Below are positions 996-27,016 of a stretch of DNA of 42,666 nucleotides, one piece after another. How positions within the stretch are numbered: the stretch's first letter is position 1; every line of letters begins with the position of its first letter. A program made the translations under genes and the position numbers. The notes beneath the pieces are model-generated. The model searched no databases and was not told where the DNA came from. It worked only from the letters and a program-made list of their open reading frames with translations. The stretch comes from Patescibacteria group bacterium (GTDB lineage Bacteria; Patescibacteriota; Patescibacteriia; Patescibacteriales; JAQTRU01): contig JAQTRU010000006.1 in NCBI GenBank assembly GCA_028711655.1, positions 1 to 42,666 of the forward strand, given 5' to 3'.

Positions 996-1074
996 TTAGC
1001 ACTCCCTTGACCCGCCTTCGTCCCGAGGCTTCGGGACTACGGCGAGGCAGGCACGAGCGCTTTTGTTATATAAT
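996..1074 (+). repeat. Broken tandem copy of the hrcA operator/promoter interrupted by a palindrome
   Basis: The 16 bases at 996-1011 (TTAGCACTCCCTTGAC) are identical to 1074-1089 in the functional operator. The expected continuation resumes at 1052 (CACGAGCGCTTTTGTTATA, compared with CACGAGTGC and GTTATAAT downstream). Between them, 1012-1051 is about 40 nt of imperfect palindrome with core CCCGAGGCTTCGGG. The simplest reading is a tandem duplication of the CIRCE/promoter region, one copy of which was then split by a small hairpin element. The rest of 905-1073 is GC-rich hairpin sequence with no gene. Confidence 0.6.
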
Positions 1075-1100
1075 TAGCACTCCCTTGACACGAGTGCTAA
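1074..1100 (+). promoter_or_regulatory. CIRCE operator (HrcA binding site)
   Basis: TTAGCACTC (1074-1082), a 9-nt spacer and GAGTGCTAA (1092-1100) form the exact CIRCE consensus, TTAGCACTC-N9-GAGTGCTAA. HrcA, encoded directly downstream, is the repressor known to bind this element, so the gene is expected to be autoregulated and heat-inducible. I see no second intact CIRCE before hsp20, dnaK or dnaJ. Those genes are therefore either co-transcribed from here or controlled otherwise. Confidence 0.95.
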
Positions 1101-1112
1101 TAGTGTTATAAT
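1085..1112 (+). promoter_or_regulatory. Sigma-70-type promoter of hrcA, -35 inside CIRCE
   Basis: TTGACA (1085-1090) lies within the CIRCE spacer and TATAAT (1107-1112) follows after 16 nt. Bound HrcA would cover the -35 hexamer. The expected transcription start (about 1118-1120) coincides with the hrcA ATG at 1119, which implies a leaderless or nearly leaderless mRNA. Confidence 0.9.
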
Positions 1113-10441: not shown

Positions 10442-10470
10442 TTGACAAGATTTTTTAGATATGATATAAT
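10442..10470 (+). promoter_or_regulatory. Consensus sigma-70 promoter
   Basis: TTGACA (10442-10447), 17 nt, TATAAT (10465-10470): perfect hexamers at ideal spacing. Expected start is about 10477, leaving a leader of about 60 nt before the next gene. Confidence 0.9.
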
Positions 10471-15780: not shown

Positions 15781-16371
15781 ATGTCGGAAGAAAAAAAACA
15801 AGAAGATAAAAAAGAAGAGAAAAAAGCGGTTGAAAAGACGGCTGATATTAAGGCTGAAGAAAAAGAAGAGAAGAAGACTGCCAAACCGCCTAAGGAAGAA
15901 AAAAATCCTTTAGCCTTAGGCGATTCAGAAGAATTGCCGGAAGATATAAAGAAAAAATTGGCGGAAAAAAAAGAGGAAAGAGCCAAGAAAAAATTCAAGA
16001 GAAAGAAAAAAACCGCCAAAACCGTAAAATCCGGACGGGCTTACATTAAGGCCACTTACAATAATACGATTGTAACCCTCACGGATTTGACGGGGAATGT
16101 TTTGGCTTGGGCCAGCGCCGGCATGGCCGGTTTTAAGGGGGCAAAAAAATCAACTCCTTATGCCGCCCAAATTATAACTAAAATTGCCGTAACGGCGGCC
16201 AGGGAAGAATTTGGTTTGGAAGAAGTAAATGTTTTTGTTAAGGGCGTGGGCACGGGCAGGGAATCGGCCGTCAGAGCCCTAAACGCCAACGGTTTAAATA
16301 TTACCGCGATTAAAGATATAACCCCGGTTCCTCATAACGGATGCCGGCCCAAAAAGCCAAGAAGAGTGTAA
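15781..16371 (+). CDS. rpsK: 30S ribosomal protein S11 with charged N-terminal extension
   Basis: The S11 core begins near residue 80 ([20 protein letters not shown]) and shows [39 protein letters not shown] and the C-terminal [15 protein letters not shown]. About 75 residues of Lys/Glu-rich low complexity precede it ([19 protein letters not shown]), making 196 residues against the usual 129. No internal ATG between the tail and the core gives an obvious shorter product. A similar K/E-rich tail ends RpoA two genes downstream. The extension is probably disordered and surface-exposed on the platform of the 30S subunit. Confidence 0.95.
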
Positions 16372-16638: not shown

Positions 16639-17274
16639 ATGGGAAGAAATTTAGACGCCAAATGCAAACAGTGCCGAAGATTAGGGGAGAAATTGTTTTT
16701 AAAAGGTGAACGTTGCAATTCGCCTAAGTGCGCTATGGTCAAGAGAAATTATCCGCCCGGCTTCCACGGACAAAAGGGGAAAAGGCGGCAGAGCGATTAT
16801 GGAATGCAGTTGGCGGAAAAACAAAAAGCCAAAAAGCAGTATAATCTATTGGAAAAGCAATTTAAGCTTACTTTTTTGAAGGCTAAAAGAAAATCGGGCG
16901 ATGCCGGCGAAAATTTGCTGAAATCGTTAGAGTTAAGGCTGGACAACGCGGTTTACCGGTTGGGATTTGCCAGTTCCAGGATTCAGGCCAGACAATTGGT
17001 TGGCCATGGCCATCTGCAGGTTAACGGCCGGAAAGTGGATATACCTTCTTATGAAGTTAAAGAGGGAGATATTATAAAAATAAAGGAAAGAAGCAAAAAA
17101 TATAAATTTTTCAAGGAATTGCCGGAAAAGCTAAGCCGCCAAAAAGAAAGTATCCCGAGCTGGCTTAATCTGAATATCGCCGAAATGGCCGGTAAGGTTT
17201 TGCACGAGCCCAAAGCCGGCGACATAAAAGCAAATGTGAATGCCCAGATAATTGTTGAATATTATTCAAAGTAA
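16639..17274 (+). CDS. rpsD: 30S ribosomal protein S4
   Basis: Primary 16S rRNA-binding protein, 211 residues. The N-terminal zinc motif is present (C9, C12, C26, C31: AKCKQCRR and ERCNSPKC), so this is the C+ form. Then KRNYPPGFHGQKGKRRQSDYG and the S4 RNA-binding domain (LELRLDNAVYRLGFASS, RQLVGHGHLQVNGRKVDIPS). The C-terminus reads NAQIIVEYYSK. Upstream there is no Shine-Dalgarno, only the right arm of the intergenic repeat. Confidence 0.97.
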   Translation: MGRNLDAKCKQCRRLGEKLFLKGERCNSPKCAMVKRNYPPGFHGQKGKRRQSDYGMQLAEKQKAKKQYNLLEKQFKLTFLKAKRKSGDAGENLLKSLELRLDNAVYRLGFASSRIQARQLVGHGHLQVNGRKVDIPSYEVKEGDIIKIKERSKKYKFFKELPEKLSRQKESIPSWLNLNIAEMAGKVLHEPKAGDIKANVNAQIIVEYYSK

Positions 17275-17383: not shown

Positions 17384-18184
17384 ATGCAAAATATTGCTTT
17401 GCCTAAAAAAATAGATTTCAAAGACGGCGAAAAGCCCAATCAGGGGACCGTGGCGATAGAGCCGTGTTATCCCGGTTATGGCATGACCATAGGCAGCTGC
17501 CTAAGGCGGATTTTGCTTTCCTCCTTGCCGGGAGCGGCGGTTATCGGAGTGAAGATTAAGGGAGCGGACCATGAGTTTATGGCCCTGCCTCATATCAAGG
17601 AGGATGTTTTGCAGATTGTTTTGAATTTGAAAAAATTAAGGCTAAAAGTATTTTCCGAGGAAGAGGTCAAATTAGAATTGAGCGCCCACGGGAAGAAAGA
17701 AGTGAAAGCGGGCGATATTGCCAAGAATTCACAGGTAGAAATAAAAAATCCCGATTTAGTTTTGGCCCACATCACCGATATGGCCGGCAGCCTTAATATG
17801 GAAATTTATGCAAGCCAGGGACGCGGCTATCGGCCGGTGGAAAACATAGAAAGCGAAAATAAAGAAATCGGCTACATAGAAATGGATTCAATTTTTTCTC
17901 CGGTTTTGTCCGTAAGCATTAAAGTGGAAAATACCCGTGTCGGCAAGATGACTAATTGGGATAAATTGTTGTTGGATATTACCACCGACGGCACAATTAC
18001 TTCGCGGGAAGCGTTTGAGCAGTCCGTAGCCATATTGATACAGCAATTCAATTCACTCCTGAACAAAGAAGAGGCCGCGGCTGAAAAAGAAAAGCAGGTT
18101 GAAAAAAAAGACGAAATTAAGGCTGAAGCGGAAGAAGGAGGGGAAGAAAAGGCAAAAAAAAGAGGAAGACCGAAGAAGATTTAG
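17384..18184 (+). CDS. rpoA: RNA polymerase alpha subunit lacking the C-terminal domain
   Basis: The N-terminal assembly domain is intact: EPCYPGYGMTIGSCLRRILL, SLPGAAVIGVKIKGADHEF, HIKEDVLQIVLNLKKL, GYIEMDSIFSPVLSVSIKVE, RVGKMTNWDKLLLDITTDGT and SREAFEQSVAILIQQF, ending about residue 228. The alpha-CTD (two helix-hairpin-helix motifs, about 80 residues, which bind UP elements and activators) is missing. Instead there is a roughly 35-residue Lys/Glu tail ending EEKAKKRGRPKKI. The final KRGRPKK is a canonical AT-hook core. Total 266 residues against about 315-330. The frame closes with a proper TAG and no CTD coding sequence follows in another frame, so this is not a simple frameshift. Confidence 0.95.
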   Translation: MQNIALPKKIDFKDGEKPNQGTVAIEPCYPGYGMTIGSCLRRILLSSLPGAAVIGVKIKGADHEFMALPHIKEDVLQIVLNLKKLRLKVFSEEEVKLELSAHGKKEVKAGDIAKNSQVEIKNPDLVLAHITDMAGSLNMEIYASQGRGYRPVENIESENKEIGYIEMDSIFSPVLSVSIKVENTRVGKMTNWDKLLLDITTDGTITSREAFEQSVAILIQQFNSLLNKEEAAAEKEKQVEKKDEIKAEAEEGGEEKAKKRGRPKKI

Positions 18185-18351: not shown

Positions 18352-18702
18352 ATGCGGCATAGAAAAAAAGGAAAAATTTTAGACAGAAAAAAGGGACCGA
18401 GAGAAGCGATGCTAAAGAATTTGGCTTCCAGTATTTTAATATACGAAAAAGTAAAAACCACGCTGGCCAAAGCCAAGGCCGTGAAACCCCAGGTGGAAAA
18501 GCTTATCACGGCAGCTAAAGCCGGCGATTTGGCCGCCAGAAGAAAATTGATCAAGGGCTTGCCGCAGCCAATGGCGGTAAAGAAATCCATGGAGGTTTTG
18601 GGCGCCAGATATAAAGACAGAAAGGGCGGCTACACGCGGATTGTTAAAACAGGCAGAAGGCAGGGAGACGGGGCGGAGATGGCGCAGATAGAGTTAGTTT
18701 AG
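18352..18702 (+). CDS. rplQ: 50S ribosomal protein L17
   Basis: 116 residues, starting MRHRKKGKILDRKKGPREAM and continuing with LASSILIYEKVKTTLAKAKAV and GGYTRIVKTGRRQGDGAEMAQIEL. Normal length and position after rpoA. The ATG comes directly after the right arm of the intergenic inverted words (ATTTGTAATTCGTAAT). Confidence 0.97.
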   Translation: MRHRKKGKILDRKKGPREAMLKNLASSILIYEKVKTTLAKAKAVKPQVEKLITAAKAGDLAARRKLIKGLPQPMAVKKSMEVLGARYKDRKGGYTRIVKTGRRQGDGAEMAQIELV

Positions 18703-18752
18703 TATAGTTACAAATTACAAATCCATTGCAAATTTTACAAATAATTATAATT

Positions 18753-19148
18753 ATGCAGGGAGGGGAACAACCGGATAAAGTTATTTATAAAGAATTAAGC
18801 TATGAAATAATACGGATTTTGTTTAATGTTTATAATAACTTCGGCTATGGCTATCAGGAAAAGTATTATCAAAAAGCTATAGAAGTAGAATTTCAAAGAA
18901 TAGGAATAAAATATAAACCGCAATGTCCGTACCAGATTCGTTATAAAGGTAAGATTTTAGGAAGATATTTCATTGATTTTATTATAGATGACAAGATTGT
19001 ATTAGAAATTAAAAGAGGAAATCACTTTTGCAAAAAAGATTTTGATCAGGTTATTGGTTATTTAAAAGCTTCGAGATTAAAATTAGGCATATTAGCTATT
19101 TTTTCTCCTAATGGGCTTAAATTTAAAAGAGTTTTAAATCTAAAATAA
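18753..19148 (+). CDS. GxxExxY family protein
   Basis: The likely start is ATG 18753 (MQGGEQPDKVIYKELSYEII); an upstream in-frame ATG (18726) lies in the repeat. The family signature GYGYQEKYYQKAIEVEF is clear, followed by RYFIDFIIDDKIVLEIKRG and the QVIGYLKASRLKLGILAIF block. GxxExxY proteins are small, widespread and uncharacterised; the D...E-x-K pattern resembles a PD-(D/E)xK nuclease core. It interrupts the usual rplQ-rplM-rpsI order and is bracketed by TTACAAATTACAAAT (left) and its complement (right). I infer an inserted accessory gene. Confidence 0.85.
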   Translation: MQGGEQPDKVIYKELSYEIIRILFNVYNNFGYGYQEKYYQKAIEVEFQRIGIKYKPQCPYQIRYKGKILGRYFIDFIIDDKIVLEIKRGNHFCKKDFDQVIGYLKASRLKLGILAIFSPNGLKFKRVLNLK

Positions 19149-20968: not shown

Positions 20969-23900
20969 ATGCTTAATCAAAATAAAGAGGAATCCAAAAA
21001 ATTAATTCCTCTGCGCCGTTTGGCTAAAGAGGCGCCGTACAAAGTTAACTACCTTTCTCTTTTGGTACAAAGAGGAAAATTAAAGGCGGAAAAAATCGGC
21101 CGGAATTATTTTACGACGCGGGAATGGTTTGAACAGTATTTGGAAATGCACGCCCGCGACGAGAAGGTGGAAAGAGCGGAAGGGGCGCAGGCAGAGAAAT
21201 CCCCCCAACCCCCTTTAACGAAAGGGGGAGAAATCCCCCCAACCCCCTTTAACGAAAGGGGGAAAAATCCCCCCAACCCCCTTTGCCGAAAGGGGGTAAG
21301 AAAGAGAAGGGAGGAGTTGGACTTTTCAGTTTTGGAAAAAATTTCAGAAAAGGCGGGCGAGGAAGACGAATTTTTAAAAAGCTGGAGAGAAAAAATCGGA
21401 GAAGAAGAAGGTAAAAAAATAGAAAAGAAAGCGGGCGATAATTTTTTTAACCGTCTTTTCGGTTTAAGGAATTTTCCCGATTCCGCGGATAAATCAGAAA
21501 AATTGGTTTTTGGTTTTTCGCGGGCTAAGTTGGCAGCCATGCTTTTAGTTTTGCTGATGGCTGCTTTTTCTTTTTCCTATTTTGTTCCGGGCGCGGCCGC
21601 TTCTTTCACGAGCATGATAGACAAAACTTTGATCGCGCCGATTGAGGCGGCGCGAGCGGTCGCGGAATCAGCGGGCGAAGCGGCGAAAGCAGCGAGCCGG
21701 TTGGCGGCCGAGAGTTCGGTTTTTGAAAAGGCGAGCCAATACTCAAACAAGGCAAAACAAGAAATGAAAAAAGTTGCCGGGCCGGTCAAGGAAATGGCGG
21801 GCCGGCAAATAGCCGTCTTGGCCGATAAGATTGATGTTGTCCGGGAGGAGATTTACGAAAGAAAAATCCAGCCGGCTTTTTCGGGCGCTTATGAAGCCGG
21901 GCGCGGCCGCGTAGCCGGCATAAGCGAGTCCGCGGGGACTAATTTGATAATGGGAAAATTTTTAGATTCAATGAAAAAAGCGGGGCGGTCAGTATCTGAT
22001 TTTTACGCCAAAGTTGTGGATTTTATGACTCCTGATTTTCTGAATAAGTATGCCGGCCAAGAAGAAGAGAAAAAATTAGCTGAAACTTCGGGTTGGCCGA
22101 TTATTCCACTTCTGCCGGAAGAGGCGGTCGGAACGTTGGCGGAAGAAGAGAAACTTTCGGATGACTTATCGGATTTACCGCAGGGAGATTCGGGGCAGGC
22201 GGAAAAAATTGAAAAAAAAGCGGTTGCCCCAAAAACCGTTGTTGCTCCTCCCGTTTATATTACCGAAGAGGCTTCGGTTTCAGAGCCGCCGGCTCCGGCA
22301 ATTGTCCAGACTCAACCCCAGATAACGATTTTGCAGGCCTCGGCCGACGGGACGACTGATGTCGGAGGCGATTTAACAGTAAAGGGCGCGGCTGTTTTTA
22401 ACGAGAGCCTTACGGTTGACGATAATCTTACGGTCAAAGGCGTAATCTACGGAGGCAGTCCGGTAAAAATTGCCGGCGGATTAAAGGTTGGGGGCGATGC
22501 CGAATTTTCCGACAGCGTATCCATAACTTCCGCAATAAGCGCAGGCAGTTTAGAGGCCTCTTCGGCCGCTATCAGCGGCAACTTAACCGTCGGCAGTATG
22601 CTTTCCGCCAATTTTTTAAATGTGAGCGGCACTTTTTCCGCCCAGTATGCCCATTTTACCAGTTTAAGCGCCAGCAGTTTTCTTTCTGGCAACAGCGTTT
22701 CCGCGGGCGAAGGCGGCCTGTCCAGCTCCGGCGGCTTAACTGTGAGCAAAAACAGCTCGGGCGATATTGTTAATGTCGTTGACGGTTCGGCTGACGTCTT
22801 TACCATTAAAGACGGCGGCAATATCGGCATCGGCACGAATTCCCCGAGCCACAAATTAGATATCGACGGCAACTTGGGCCTGTCTGCCGGAGGGTATATT
22901 AATTGGGGGTCAACTGACGGAACTGGCGGCTATGGCCTGCGCGACAATTCCGGAACCCTGCAGTTTAAAAATTCCGGCGGAGCCTGGGGAGATATTCCTT
23001 CTGTAATTTGGAGCGTTTCCGGCGCGGACGCTTATTATACCGCCGGCAATGTCGGCATCGGCACCTCCACTCCTTATTCCAAACTCTCGGTCTGGGGCTT
23101 TGGGACAGGAACCAATCGCCTGTTTGAACTGACCAATTCCGCTTCTACCACTTTAGCCAGCTTTCTTGAAAATGGCACTGGCTATTTCTTGGGTAATATA
23201 GGTATCGGTACCACCTCACCCTACGCTAAATTATCCGTAGCCGGAAACATCGCGGTGGACGGAACAATTACGGCTTCTACTTTTACCGCCACGTCTTCAA
23301 TCTCGGCTCCGTATTTTACCGCGACCGACGCTTCGGCCACTTCCACTTTCGCCGGAGGACTGACGGTAGACACCAGCGGTTTGGTTTATGACTGGCAAAC
23401 AGGCAACGTCGGCATCGGCACAACTACTCCCGCTTATCTCTTAGACGTTGACGGAGATTTCAGAGTGGGGGTAGAGAGTAAAGCTAATACTTTTTACGTT
23501 GATACGGCTAATGAAAGAGTGGGGATTGGGACAGCTTCACCAATAGCTAAATTAACTGTAAAATCAGCAGGGTATATAAATACTGAAGGAATACGCCTTG
23601 AAGATGCGAGTGGCAATGGAATTGTTAATTTATATGAGAATACTGTAGGTTCCGGGTATATATCACTACGAAAATACGCCGTTGGCAATACAATCATTTT
23701 AAATGCAGCAGGAAATAGTTGGATTGATAATGGGGCAAATTTTGGCATAGGCACTTCTTCGCCTCAAGCGGTTTTAGAAGTTAACGGAGACTTTAGGGTA
23801 GGAGAAGGAGCTAATTTTAACGGACTTTTTGTGGATGCAACGCAGGGGAAAGTCGGTATCGGGACGGATAGTCCAGGGGCGAAGTTAGATATAATGACGA

Positions 23901-26900
23901 CCAGTGGAAATATCCAAATGCGACTTGGTAGTAGTGGGTCTGCAACAACAAATTTTGATATTGGAAGAAATGCGAATGGCTACTTAGAATTTACTGGTAA
24001 TCAAATTGGATATGCCAGTTATCGCTTTAATGCAAATGCGGCAAATCAAGGTTCGTTTGGTGCATATGACTTTCGGGATCAAGAGACAAGTAGGCTCTTT
24101 ATATCAACCGCTGGCAACATCGGCATCGGGACGACTTCGCCAGCTTATCTCTTAGATGTTAACGGTGATATGAGGGTGGGAATCGCGGGCAAAGCTAATA
24201 CTTTTTATGTTGATACGGCTAATGAGAGGGTGGGGATTGGGACTGATAGTCCAGGAGCTCTCCTTGATGTAAATGGTATTGCCAAAGTAACTAAATTATC
24301 AATAAATACATCTCAAAATCAAAATTATCTTATAGTCTCTGGAAATGCAAGCATAGGATATAATTATAGAGATGTTACAGCTCCACAAAATGGTTTAATA
24401 GTTGAAGGCAACGTCGGGATTGGAACAACAACGCCGGCTTATCTTTTAGACGTTGACGGGGATTTTAGAGTAGGGGTAGAGAGTAAAGATAATACTTTTT
24501 ACGTTGATACGGCTAATGAAAGAGTGGGTATCGGGACGGCAAGTGCGGGGGCGAAGTTGGGCATAGTAGTTTCTGGAACAGATGCTGTTCACGACAATAC
24601 AGATTTATTAACCACAGCAGATACTTCTGATGCTTTATATATTCAAAATGAGAATGCTGCTGCAAATTCAGTTGGATTGATTTTAAGAAATCGTGTAGCT
24701 GGTGCATCAACCTGGGGAATTTTTAATGAATGGCAAGATACGGATTATGGAGATTTGGTTTTTAGAGGACGCAGTGGCGGAGCAACCTCAAAAGAAGTAA
24801 TGAGGCTAGAGGCAAACTCCGGCAACGTCGGCATCGGGACGACTTCGCCGATGTCTAAACTCTCGGTGACATCCAACTCCGGGTCGCAACTTACTTTAGC
24901 TTATGATGATACCAATTACGCGAATTTTACGGTCGGGTCTGACAGCCAATTAACAATCGCTCCGGCCAATAACGCGACTACGACGATTGGGGTCGGAGAC
25001 GAAGCTTTACGAGTTGATTCTTCGGGAAATATCGGCGTAGGCACAACCACGCCTAAGTCAAAATTGTCAATTTTAGGCGGAGTGGATGTTAATCGCGGAG
25101 TAATTGTGCCGACCGGCAGTATTGATATCAGCGGTTCTTATTTAACAAACGGCGCTGATTATGCGGAATATTATTATTCTATAGATAATAATTTAGAGCC
25201 CGGAGAAGCGGTCTGCGTGGATATAGAAAGGGAAAACGCGGTTAAAAGATGCGAACGGGCGGCAGATGGCAATTTAATGGGTATAGTTTCCACCAAACCG
25301 GCGATTGTGGGTAATGGCGGACCGGGCAAAAACGGGATGGAAAAAAGTAAAGATAATCATTATGCCATTATTGGCATGCTGGGCCAGGTTCCGGCTCGGG
25401 TCACTACGGCGAACGGGCCAATCCGGCCGGGCGATTCTCTAACTTCTGCTTCTCGGCCGGGCTACGTTATGCGGGCAAGCGCCGGTGATCCGACGGTCGG
25501 GGTTGCATTAGAGGGCTTAGACACGAATGAAACGAACGACACGAATATAACGAATGAGATTGGGACGGGAGTGATTAATGTCCTGATTTCAAGAAGAAAT
25601 AAGAGTCTGACCGTGGAAGAAATAGAGGAGAAAGTAACTGAACGAATCGCTAATATGGAAATAGAGGATGAAGTTAATATATTAATTGCTAATGCCATAA
25701 ATAATTTAAATTTAGACGATGAGATCACAGAAGTCCTTGATCCGAAATTATTATTACTGGAAACCAGATTGACTGTTAAGAGCGATGATTTAGGGAGCAG
25801 AATTGTGAATATGGAAAAAACCGTGAGCGATATAATCAGTATGGTGGCGAATTTAGACGCGGTAATTAGGGCGCAGGGCTTAGGGCTTAGGGAAGAGATG
25901 AGCGTAATAACCGATAACCAAGAAACAATAGCCAAACAAATTTCAATAATCAATAGCCAATTAAACACGAATTTGACGAACCTGACGAATTTAACGAATG
26001 CATTTGCCGTGGACGAATATGGCAATATTAAATTAGGCAAGACCTCACCCCAACCCTCTCCTTCGCAAGGAGAGGGGGGGGTAGCCGTGGTGGAGATTGT
26101 TACCGCCACTACCACGGCCCAGACCGCGTTTGTGATTAATCAGTCCGGCTCCGGAGATGTGGCGGATTTCCGCGCTAATGACGTGAGTATTTTAAATATT
26201 GGCGTGAGCGGCAAAGTTTCCATTGTCGGCACTTTGGCGGTGGACGGCCGGATCATGGCTTGCTCCGGGTCATCTTGCGGTACGGCTTTAGATTTGGCGG
26301 TTGATGAAACCATGGGCGATATTGGGGTAGAAGGCAAAGTCGTGGCCGGAGCGTTTGAGGGTTATTGCGAAGAGGGTTTTGTCTGGGCGCCGGGCTCGGC
26401 GAAGTATGGGACAATGCCGGGATTCTGCGTGGCGGCTCGCATCGCTCGCCTGGCAGACACGAATGAAACGAATTTAACGAATATAACGAATGTGAATGGC
26501 CAGGTATGGAATAATATTTCGCAGGGTGAAGCAGGCCTTGCCTGCCAGAGTTTGGGCGCGGGCTACCATTTAATTTCCGAAAACGAGTGGCTTACCATGG
26601 CGGAGAATATAATAAACACAAAAGGGACGAAATTTAACGAAAAAAACGAATTAAGTGAGGCGGACGGCGTAAATGAATATGTGTTGTCTAATGATAATGT
26701 TGTATATATGAATATAGGAATCGGAGAATGGACCAATCAGACAATTACGAAAAAGGGAGCGCCGGAATTAAACACGAACGGAACGAACCTGAACGAATGG
26801 TACGAATACTTTGATGTTATAGATTTCAAAGGGTTGAATATCGCGCCGCCTTATTATTTGAATGACGCAGATAATAATATCGGGAAGATTAAGATTGGCT

Positions 26901-27016
26901 CAAATATTGATGTGTTGCGGGGTTTTGTCCGGGGAGCAGGCGGAATTTACAGCTTGGATTTGTCCAACGCGCCAACCGCGGTGAGCGAGAGTATTGGCTT
27001 TCGTTGCGCGCGCTAA
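20969..27016 (+). CDS. Giant membrane-anchored surface protein with cytoplasmic HTH and GIGT-repeat fibre
   Basis: 2015 residues. Domain order: an excisionase/MerR-like HTH (about 10-60: LIPLRRLAKEAP, YLSLLVQRGKLKAEKIGRNY, FTTREWFEQYL); a P-rich insert from three 34-nt palindromes (about 76-110); one TM helix (about 187-208, LAAMLLVLLMAAFSFSYF); an Ala-rich helical stalk (210-375); LTVKG-type beta repeats (about 460-610); thirteen units of the form GNVGIGTTSPxxKLDVxG (about 618-1372); a GADYAEYY block (about 1395); a coiled coil (about 1545-1665); and a C-terminal Cys-containing domain resembling formylglycine-enzyme/SUMF1-type folds (about 1795-2015: MPGFCV, GYHLISENEWLTMAENI, SIGFRCAR). Topology implies an N-terminal DNA-binding domain inside and a long fibre outside. 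Adhesion or sensing is inferred. GIGT repeats are typical of phage tail-fibre and CPR surface proteins. There is no Shine-Dalgarno at the ATG. Confidence 0.85.
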   Translation: MLNQNKEESKKLIPLRRLAKEAPYKVNYLSLLVQRGKLKAEKIGRNYFTTREWFEQYLEMHARDEKVERAEGAQAEKSPQPPLTKGGEIPPTPFNERGKNPPNPLCRKGVRKRREELDFSVLEKISEKAGEEDEFLKSWREKIGEEEGKKIEKKAGDNFFNRLFGLRNFPDSADKSEKLVFGFSRAKLAAMLLVLLMAAFSFSYFVPGAAASFTSMIDKTLIAPIEAARAVAESAGEAAKAASRLAAESSVFEKASQYSNKAKQEMKKVAGPVKEMAGRQIAVLADKIDVVREEIYERKIQPAFSGAYEAGRGRVAGISESAGTNLIMGKFLDSMKKAGRSVSDFYAKVVDFMTPDFLNKYAGQEEEKKLAETSGWPIIPLLPEEAVGTLAEEEKLSDDLSDLPQGDSGQAEKIEKKAVAPKTVVAPPVYITEEASVSEPPAPAIVQTQPQITILQASADGTTDVGGDLTVKGAAVFNESLTVDDNLTVKGVIYGGSPVKIAGGLKVGGDAEFSDSVSITSAISAGSLEASSAAISGNLTVGSMLSANFLNVSGTFSAQYAHFTSLSASSFLSGNSVSAGEGGLSSSGGLTVSKNSSGDIVNVVDGSADVFTIKDGGNIGIGTNSPSHKLDIDGNLGLSAGGYINWGSTDGTGGYGLRDNSGTLQFKNSGGAWGDIPSVIWSVSGADAYYTAGNVGIGTSTPYSKLSVWGFGTGTNRLFELTNSASTTLASFLENGTGYFLGNIGIGTTSPYAKLSVAGNIAVDGTITASTFTATSSISAPYFTATDASATSTFAGGLTVDTSGLVYDWQTGNVGIGTTTPAYLLDVDGDFRVGVESKANTFYVDTANERVGIGTASPIAKLTVKSAGYINTEGIRLEDASGNGIVNLYENTVGSGYISLRKYAVGNTIILNAAGNSWIDNGANFGIGTSSPQAVLEVNGDFRVGEGANFNGLFVDATQGKVGIGTDSPGAKLDIMTTSGNIQMRLGSSGSATTNFDIGRNANGYLEFTGNQIGYASYRFNANAANQGSFGAYDFRDQETSRLFISTAGNIGIGTTSPAYLLDVNGDMRVGIAGKANTFYVDTANERVGIGTDSPGALLDVNGIAKVTKLSINTSQNQNYLIVSGNASIGYNYRDVTAPQNGLIVEGNVGIGTTTPAYLLDVDGDFRVGVESKDNTFYVDTANERVGIGTASAGAKLGIVVSGTDAVHDNTDLLTTADTSDALYIQNENAAANSVGLILRNRVAGASTWGIFNEWQDTDYGDLVFRGRSGGATSKEVMRLEANSGNVGIGTTSPMSKLSVTSNSGSQLTLAYDDTNYANFTVGSDSQLTIAPANNATTTIGVGDEALRVDSSGNIGVGTTTPKSKLSILGGVDVNRGVIVPTGSIDISGSYLTNGADYAEYYYSIDNNLEPGEAVCVDIERENAVKRCERAADGNLMGIVSTKPAIVGNGGPGKNGMEKSKDNHYAIIGMLGQVPARVTTANGPIRPGDSLTSASRPGYVMRASAGDPTVGVALEGLDTNETNDTNITNEIGTGVINVLISRRNKSLTVEEIEEKVTERIANMEIEDEVNILIANAINNLNLDDEITEVLDPKLLLLETRLTVKSDDLGSRIVNMEKTVSDIISMVANLDAVIRAQGLGLREEMSVITDNQETIAKQISIINSQLNTNLTNLTNLTNAFAVDEYGNIKLGKTSPQPSPSQGEGGVAVVEIVTATTTAQTAFVINQSGSGDVADFRANDVSILNIGVSGKVSIVGTLAVDGRIMACSGSSCGTALDLAVDETMGDIGVEGKVVAGAFEGYCEEGFVWAPGSAKYGTMPGFCVAARIARLADTNETNLTNITNVNGQVWNNISQGEAGLACQSLGAGYHLISENEWLTMAENIINTKGTKFNEKNELSEADGVNEYVLSNDNVVYMNIGIGEWTNQTITKKGAPELNTNGTNLNEWYEYFDVIDFKGLNIAPPYYLNDADNNIGKIKIGSNIDVLRGFVRGAGGIYSLDLSNAPTAVSESIGFRCAR
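21196..21297. repeat. Three tandem 34-nt palindromes inside the giant gene
   Basis: Three copies of AATCCCCCCAACCCCCTTT followed by AACGAAAGGGGG, with a 34-nt period (AAAT at 21197, 21231 and 21265). Each copy is read in a different frame (SPQPPLTKGG, IPPTPFNERG, NPPNPLCRKG). Three copies total 102 nt, which keeps the gene in frame. Confidence 0.9.
23428..24540 (+). repeat. Three near-identical ~105-nt intragenic repeats
   Basis: Copies at about 23428-23532, 24133-24241 and 24434-24537 encode PAYLLDVDGDFRVGV..., KANTFYVDTANERVGIGT. They are almost identical at DNA level, and the segments between them are more AT-rich and unrelated. They are obvious substrates for recombination and length change. 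Confidence 0.8.
25523..26810 (+). repeat. Nonamer arrays (ACGAATNNN) in coding sequence
   Basis: Four clusters of 9-nt units occur in the giant gene: 25523-25558, 25967-26002, 26459-26494 and about 26774-26805. They encode Thr-Asn-x runs (TNETNDTNITN, TNLTNLTNLTN, TNETNLTNITN, TNGTNLNEW). The 9-nt period keeps the frame. A CCCTCTCCTT palindrome (26041-26080, encoding SPQPSPSQGEGG) lies between two of them. Confidence 0.85.

Follow-up and report, generated by a model that had tools for sequence, protein, structure and literature searches.

What remains of the DNA contacts of the RNA polymerase alpha subunit when its C-terminal domain is gone? The question is raised by the RpoA gene at 17384-18184 of contig JAQTRU010000006.1 (assembly GCA_028711655.1, Patescibacteria group bacterium), a 42,666-nucleotide stretch of DNA that was analysed whole and is called the window here. 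The C-terminal domain of alpha (alpha-CTD) makes minor-groove contacts to AT-rich DNA. A sequence-only reading of the window had noticed an RpoA that keeps its whole assembly domain, lacks the alpha-CTD and ends in KKRGRPKKI, resembling an AT-hook, and all of this is confirmed by Pfam, NCBIfam and the translation. That reading went on to propose that the hook stands in for the lost domain at the same kind of target, a proposal that is supported in part. The gene is divided as follows.

17384-18184, + strand: RpoA open reading frame (ORF), 266 amino acids, with the C-terminal end EEKAKKRGRPKKI
17384..18061, + strand: RpoA assembly domain (N-terminal domain of alpha, alpha-NTD), residues 1-226, complete, by PF01193 and PF01000, AlphaFold2 and matches to alpha chains in PDB
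18062..18154, + strand: disordered charged linker, residues 227-257, by predicted local distance difference test (pLDDT), composition and divergence among hook tails
18155..18178, + strand: AT-hook-like KKRGRPKK (residues 258-265), with a single residue between it and the C-terminus, by AT_hook profile, pattern and codon identity

RpoA without an alpha-CTD throughout the class

Pfam aligns RNA_pol_A_bac (PF01000, positions 1-119 of 119) and RNA_pol_L (PF01193, 1-74 of 74) to RpoA from end to end, and the same search finds no RNA_pol_A_CTD (PF03118), the helix-hairpin-helix family, anywhere in the product of 17384-18184. The NCBIfam rpoA models cover the protein only to position 228 of 298 and 250 of 320, and TIGR02027 scores 253 bits against a cut-off of 227.8, identifying it as a bacterial RpoA. 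The AlphaFold2 model, built from 13 aligned sequences, has pLDDT mostly of 80-91 in the assembly domain, with dips to about 60 at residues 61-70 and 151-160, and stays below 50 over residues 231-266. The structural matches listed for it in PDB are RNA polymerase structures, superimposed over the assembly domain.

The sequence-only reading had warned that the domain might be encoded separately, or that related RpoA proteins might keep it and the ending be a local truncation, and neither was found. In the 1,096,403 bases of this genome, which is 97.6% complete, no PF03118 match exceeds the cut-off and hence no separate alpha-CTD gene was found; the sole match is one of 12 bits in an unrelated 308-residue ORF. 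A local truncation is rejected, since close relatives share this ending and the CTD is absent from the class, which we take to be ABY1. An rpoA match was obtained in 119 of the 125 class genomes, with none of the rpoA rows going past position 242 of the 298 in the model, and in a survey of 239 genomes of the phylum the rpoA alignments reach 267-298 among the best-scoring matches listed. The alpha-CTD is missing across the class and is retained by most of the sampled phylum. Because it is missing from every class RpoA seen, the protein still counts as RpoA, in a version lacking the CTD, and the RpoA of this class is permanently without the domain.

Separate CTD-like pieces do occur in 12 of the 125 class genomes (14 rows). 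Within the order, PF03118 exceeds its cut-off in 5 of 60 genomes, and the six loci were translated; as candidates for a second rpoA they are rejected, none resembling one by eye. Two of the six seem to combine a sigma4-type helix-turn-helix with an alpha-CTD (L112, 379 amino acids, and L113, 356 amino acids), in an order whose RpoA is CTD-less.

Loss of the alpha-CTD in Parcubacteria is already in print, as one sentence (PMC8321222). The source cited there beside Parcubacteria (PMC4508563) has neither rpoA nor RNA polymerase in its main text, by term search. The alpha subunits of Hodgkinia, Tremblaya and microalgal chloroplasts are likewise CTD-less (PMC8321222), and that paper's passages on CTD loss name no motif in place of the domain.

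The tail and its AT-hook-like end

What is found where the domain used to be was read from 160 RpoA C-termini, of which 50 belong to the order and 110 to other members of the class. For the order, 6 of 60 genomes had no rpoA match and the tails of G017, G019, G036 and G048 were not included; for the class, 6 of 125 had no match and those of G301, G340, G366 and G392 were not included. Taking as a hook any GRP[KR]K within the last 40 residues, we count 18 among the 50 from the order and 22 among the remaining 110. Another basic end, plain lysine-rich, is present in 83 of the 160 and is commoner than the hook (40 of 160). The class tail is a disordered charged linker, in most members with a short basic patch that lies at the C-terminus or close to it. 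In roughly one in four of the RpoA read, that of the window with its KKRGRPKK included, this patch is a canonical AT-hook.

A survey of RpoA C-termini for RGRP, as the sequence-only reading had suggested, finds it near the end in 40 of the 160 CTD-less class proteins and in one CTD-less protein from outside the class, that of G254. Among 41 CTD-bearing RpoA, GRP does not occur in the last 40 residues. That GRP[KR]K and plain RGRP both give 40 hides a small exchange, G014 (RRGRPKN) being counted as basic under the rule and G364 (AGRPKK) dropping out under RGRP. A basic or hook end is carried by 123 of the 160 class proteins versus 3 of the 41 CTD-bearing ones and 4-13% of the ORFs sampled in four genome sets, a contrast that speaks for a role of the patch. 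A second collection, of 65 complete relatives (66 loci, one cut), contains 22 with an RGRP end, eight of them identical to none of the 160. Written as a DNA pattern, KRGRPKK has a single occurrence in the 1.10-Mb genome of the window, at the end of rpoA, with none for a reversed control. Across the order the same pattern turns up 18 times, in 17 of the 60 genomes, against 3 times for the reversed control, and reading the loci puts 17 of the 18 at the end of rpoA and one in another gene.

The HMGA-type AT-hook has a GRP core with basic flanks, in a published consensus ending RGRPKK (PMC11354804). The KKRGRPKK of RpoA has the same core and the same kind of flanks, which is what defines an AT-hook, and it differs from the HMGA type in being single, bacterial and at the very C-terminus. 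With 13 K/R and 12 D/E in its last 40 residues, RpoA has an HMGA-like layout in which a disordered segment is followed by an RGRP hook at the end, although there is one hook only and the linker is mixed and not purely acidic. A PDB sequence search with this 40-residue tail gives no match.

An end of this sort might be a neutral or decaying remnant, in which RGRP came about by lysine-rich drift, by chance or by low-complexity slippage. It is in favour of such a remnant that the linker is saturated and that tail types switch often, with 42 changes for four tail states on the assembly-domain tree. Composition, however, accounts for almost none of the hooks: shuffling the last 40 residues of the 160 tails gives a mean of 0.0115 RGRP and a maximum of 1, versus the 40 observed. 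The hook labels are also clustered on the tree, needing 18 changes versus 28-40 in 200 shuffles. The codons give a third measure, for which 40 hook tails (a slightly different 40 from the RGRP set) were aligned by [KR]xGRP[KR]x, a pattern that fixes G, R and P and leaves the basic neighbours and third positions free of that choice. Over the motif, identity is 0.95 for amino acids, 0.90 for codon positions 1 and 2, and 0.40 for third positions, which are near saturation, and the 20 residues ahead of the motif have a mean identity of 0.18 among the same tails. A motif nearly fixed as protein with its third codon positions free shows that the peptide itself is under selection. We give a neutral remnant hardly any credence, and the earlier view of the peptide as a real, selected AT-hook-like motif confined to CTD-less RpoA stands.

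On the assembly-domain tree the hook is passed down within groups of relatives, yet it has been gained or lost many times. Rate models return log-likelihoods of -65.2 with gain and loss free, -67.3 with loss only and -69.1 with gain only, and they do not separate an ancestral hook from repeated gain. In the phylum, the KRGRPKK pattern is found in 8 of 239 genomes, namely in the rpoA of the window, in the rpoA of G254 and in six other genes. G254 (L381) is outside the class, and its CTD-less RpoA has the end KKKRGRPKKVKLVE. A quick tree, from which the long-branch rows G325, G335 and G312 were omitted, places the G254 assembly domain among CTD-bearing RpoA, in a set of five rows with a Shimodaira-Hasegawa-like approximate likelihood ratio test (SH-aLRT) value of 99. 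A careful tree of 55 rows places it with CTD-bearing RpoA again, with support of 94/86 and 90/61; the 32 class rows in it, 16 hook and 16 other, are a random draw from the 160 minus G325, G299, G318, G335 and G312. In single-gene RpoA trees the class itself is not one clade. From these placements it is likely, though not proven, that the hook arose a second time in the G254 lineage.

Promoters and the possible role of the tail

One use for such a hook would be to replace the alpha-CTD outright and read A/T tracts like those of upstream promoter (UP) elements, just upstream of the -35 hexamer, as the WhiB7 hook does beside sigma region 4. In mycobacterial WhiB7, a single C-terminal AT-hook on the holoenzyme is able to act at promoters (PMC3905903). 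The likeness is that a single AT-hook ends a protein on RNA polymerase holoenzyme; the difference is that WhiB7 attaches to sigma region 4 and uses its hook to read an AT-rich motif by the -35, a signal of which the hook genomes have little. Predicted promoters were sites in front of ORFs that match 10 or more of the 12 consensus positions, in about 400 kb per sample. The A/T excess was obtained by subtracting the A/T of the stretch 30-60 bp upstream of the -35 hexamer from the A/T of the 22 bp that adjoin the hexamer on its upstream side. In the CTD control, which is a single sample made of G132 and two stretches of G100, the excess is +0.115 +/- 0.022 (n=48). The genome of the window gives +0.042 +/- 0.022 (n=60), a distance from zero of roughly two standard errors that is not repeated in a second hook genome, G379, at -0.041 +/- 0.035 (n=33), and a lysine-tail genome, G055, gives -0.004 +/- 0.027 (n=55). 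The CTD sample differs from the genome of the window with p 0.011 and from both hook genomes with p 0.0008, and an earlier variant of the measure had a matching outcome.

A-tract measures are strong in the CTD sample, and weak and mostly non-significant in the hook genomes. Joining the two hook genomes leaves a weak excess that speaks for direct replacement at a lax threshold (difference 0.080, p 0.025, n=205) and has p 0.105 at a strict one (n=93). Nine promoters pooled from other hook loci also speak for it, going in the opposite direction from the genome samples at +0.146 +/- 0.079, a noisy value; as a replicate the pooled loci supply 9 hook, 25 basic and 17 promoters with neither, and no CTD loci. 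Counts of W-runs near promoters in 60 genomes of the order and 78 of the phylum were set aside as insensitive, since in G132, whose UP signal is clear, the near and the displaced counts are both 21; in the genome of the window they are 56 and 72. Because the promoters of the hook genomes show little of the signal, the tail does not look like a reader of a fixed UP element at -40 to -60, and the promoter-reading function of the CTD seems to have been lost and not taken over by the tail. We consider direct replacement unlikely, and on predicted promoters with one control the earlier claim of shared UP-type targets is not borne out. It had also pointed to full-consensus promoters as an outcome of CTD loss, and this is rejected. 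Those at 10442 and 14294 are indeed 12 of 12 matches to TTGACA-17-TATAAT, but near-perfect promoters are equally common in the CTD sample: sites of 11-12 of 12 number 20 in 436 kb of the genome of the window, and 6 in G379, 22 in G055 and 23 in the CTD sample, each in 400 kb.

The tail might instead do without DNA, its target being RNA or the ribosome, or else an acidic partner, unless it serves just to keep the subunit soluble. At the 4-13% of ORFs given above, basic ends are no rarity in these proteomes, and lysine-rich ends outnumber hooks by 83 to 40, both of which are compatible with such a role. Charge alone, however, needs no exact G-R-P core, and the core is invariant, with synonymous sites left free, in the 40 hook tails, which were chosen by that core. 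The six matches in the phylum outside rpoA include two in RecA, one with a C-terminal KKKRGRPKK (G226, L378) and one with an N-terminal MPKRGRPKK (G293, L379), and we count the identical peptide on RecA in support of a link between the hook and DNA. A role away from DNA therefore has a low probability in our estimate.

We think it fairly probable that the tail, disordered and HMGA-like, tethers RNA polymerase to DNA and is not a UP-element reader. The basic patch would bind DNA or other nucleic acid, and the two tails, one per alpha, would anchor the polymerase flexibly in the minor groove and increase its affinity for nearby A/T-rich DNA in general, like the HMGA-like tail of Myxococcus CarD; plain lysine-rich tails would anchor it in this way with less specificity. 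In Myxococcus xanthus CarD, the basic part of the HMGA-like C-terminal domain tolerates replacement by other basic disordered domains (PMC4374960). That tail is also disordered, an acidic segment preceding its RGRP hooks, and the protein carrying it binds RNA polymerase (PMC4374960); the CarD tail differs in belonging to an accessory factor on the beta subunit and in having four hooks, versus one within alpha itself. The tether is plausible because the CarD tail is similar and tolerates other basic disordered ends, fitting the exchange of hook and lysine-rich ends among class RpoA. Like the alpha-CTD (PF03118), the hook is positioned on alpha behind a flexible linker; unlike it, the hook is about 8 residues with no fold, no helix-hairpin-helix and no activator surface. 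An eight-residue peptide may be substituting for a whole domain. A broader scenario, which we hold possible but somewhat doubtful, is that CTD loss was followed by at least two independent gains of the same eight-residue AT-hook in Patescibacteria, giving paired HMGA-like anchors by which the polymerase would have kept its DNA grip and given up UP recognition and activator docking.

Several results weigh against the tether. Pfam AT_hook (PF02178) scores 11.2 bits on residues 258-265 and 14.4 bits on the 40-residue tail alone, both under the 17.4 cut-off. By our rule, both hook and basic patch are lacking in 37 of the 160 class RpoA, and the tail is therefore dispensable in some lineages. The 18 changes that the hook costs by parsimony are many, the free gain-loss model favours a hookless class ancestor (0.98), and the approximately unbiased (AU) test does not reject a placement of G254 with the class (p-AU 0.168).

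No RpoA with an AT-hook was found in the open-licence literature, judged by title and abstract; nothing was found there on the RpoA C-terminal domain of the candidate phyla radiation (CPR), and alpha-CTD together with Parcubacteria led to PMC8321222 alone. CTD-less RpoA is known, and so are transcription proteins with an HMGA-like tail; the combination is new as far as this literature was searched. If the tether is real, an essential enzyme has swapped a regulatory domain for an eight-residue peptide. The holding of DNA and the reading of promoters by the alpha-CTD would then be separable, with the 160 RpoA and their hook, lysine-rich and bare tails as a natural experiment. Regulation through alpha contacts would be absent from an entire uncultured bacterial class, with consequences for predicting or building promoters there.

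Neighbouring genes and other features

The order of genes around rpoA is the usual one, S13-S11-S4-rpoA-L17, with these immediate neighbours.

16639..17274, + strand: rpsD (S4), upstream of rpoA, by Pfam Ribosomal_S4 and S4
18352..18702, + strand: rplQ (L17), downstream of rpoA, by Pfam Ribosomal_L17

Elsewhere in the window, the ORF at 20969-27016, of 2015 residues, has no Pfam match at E 0.001. The S11 gene (15781-16371) has an N-terminal extension of about 84 residues ahead of the Pfam domain, coded for partly by an A-rich repeat, and a gene resembling PDDEXK_3 nucleases (18726-19148) lies between the L17 and L13 genes. A further 12 of 12 promoter, at 1085, overlaps an inverted repeat (window 1060-1110) immediately upstream of an hrcA-like ORF at 1119-1805. 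The repeat resembles the CIRCE operator.
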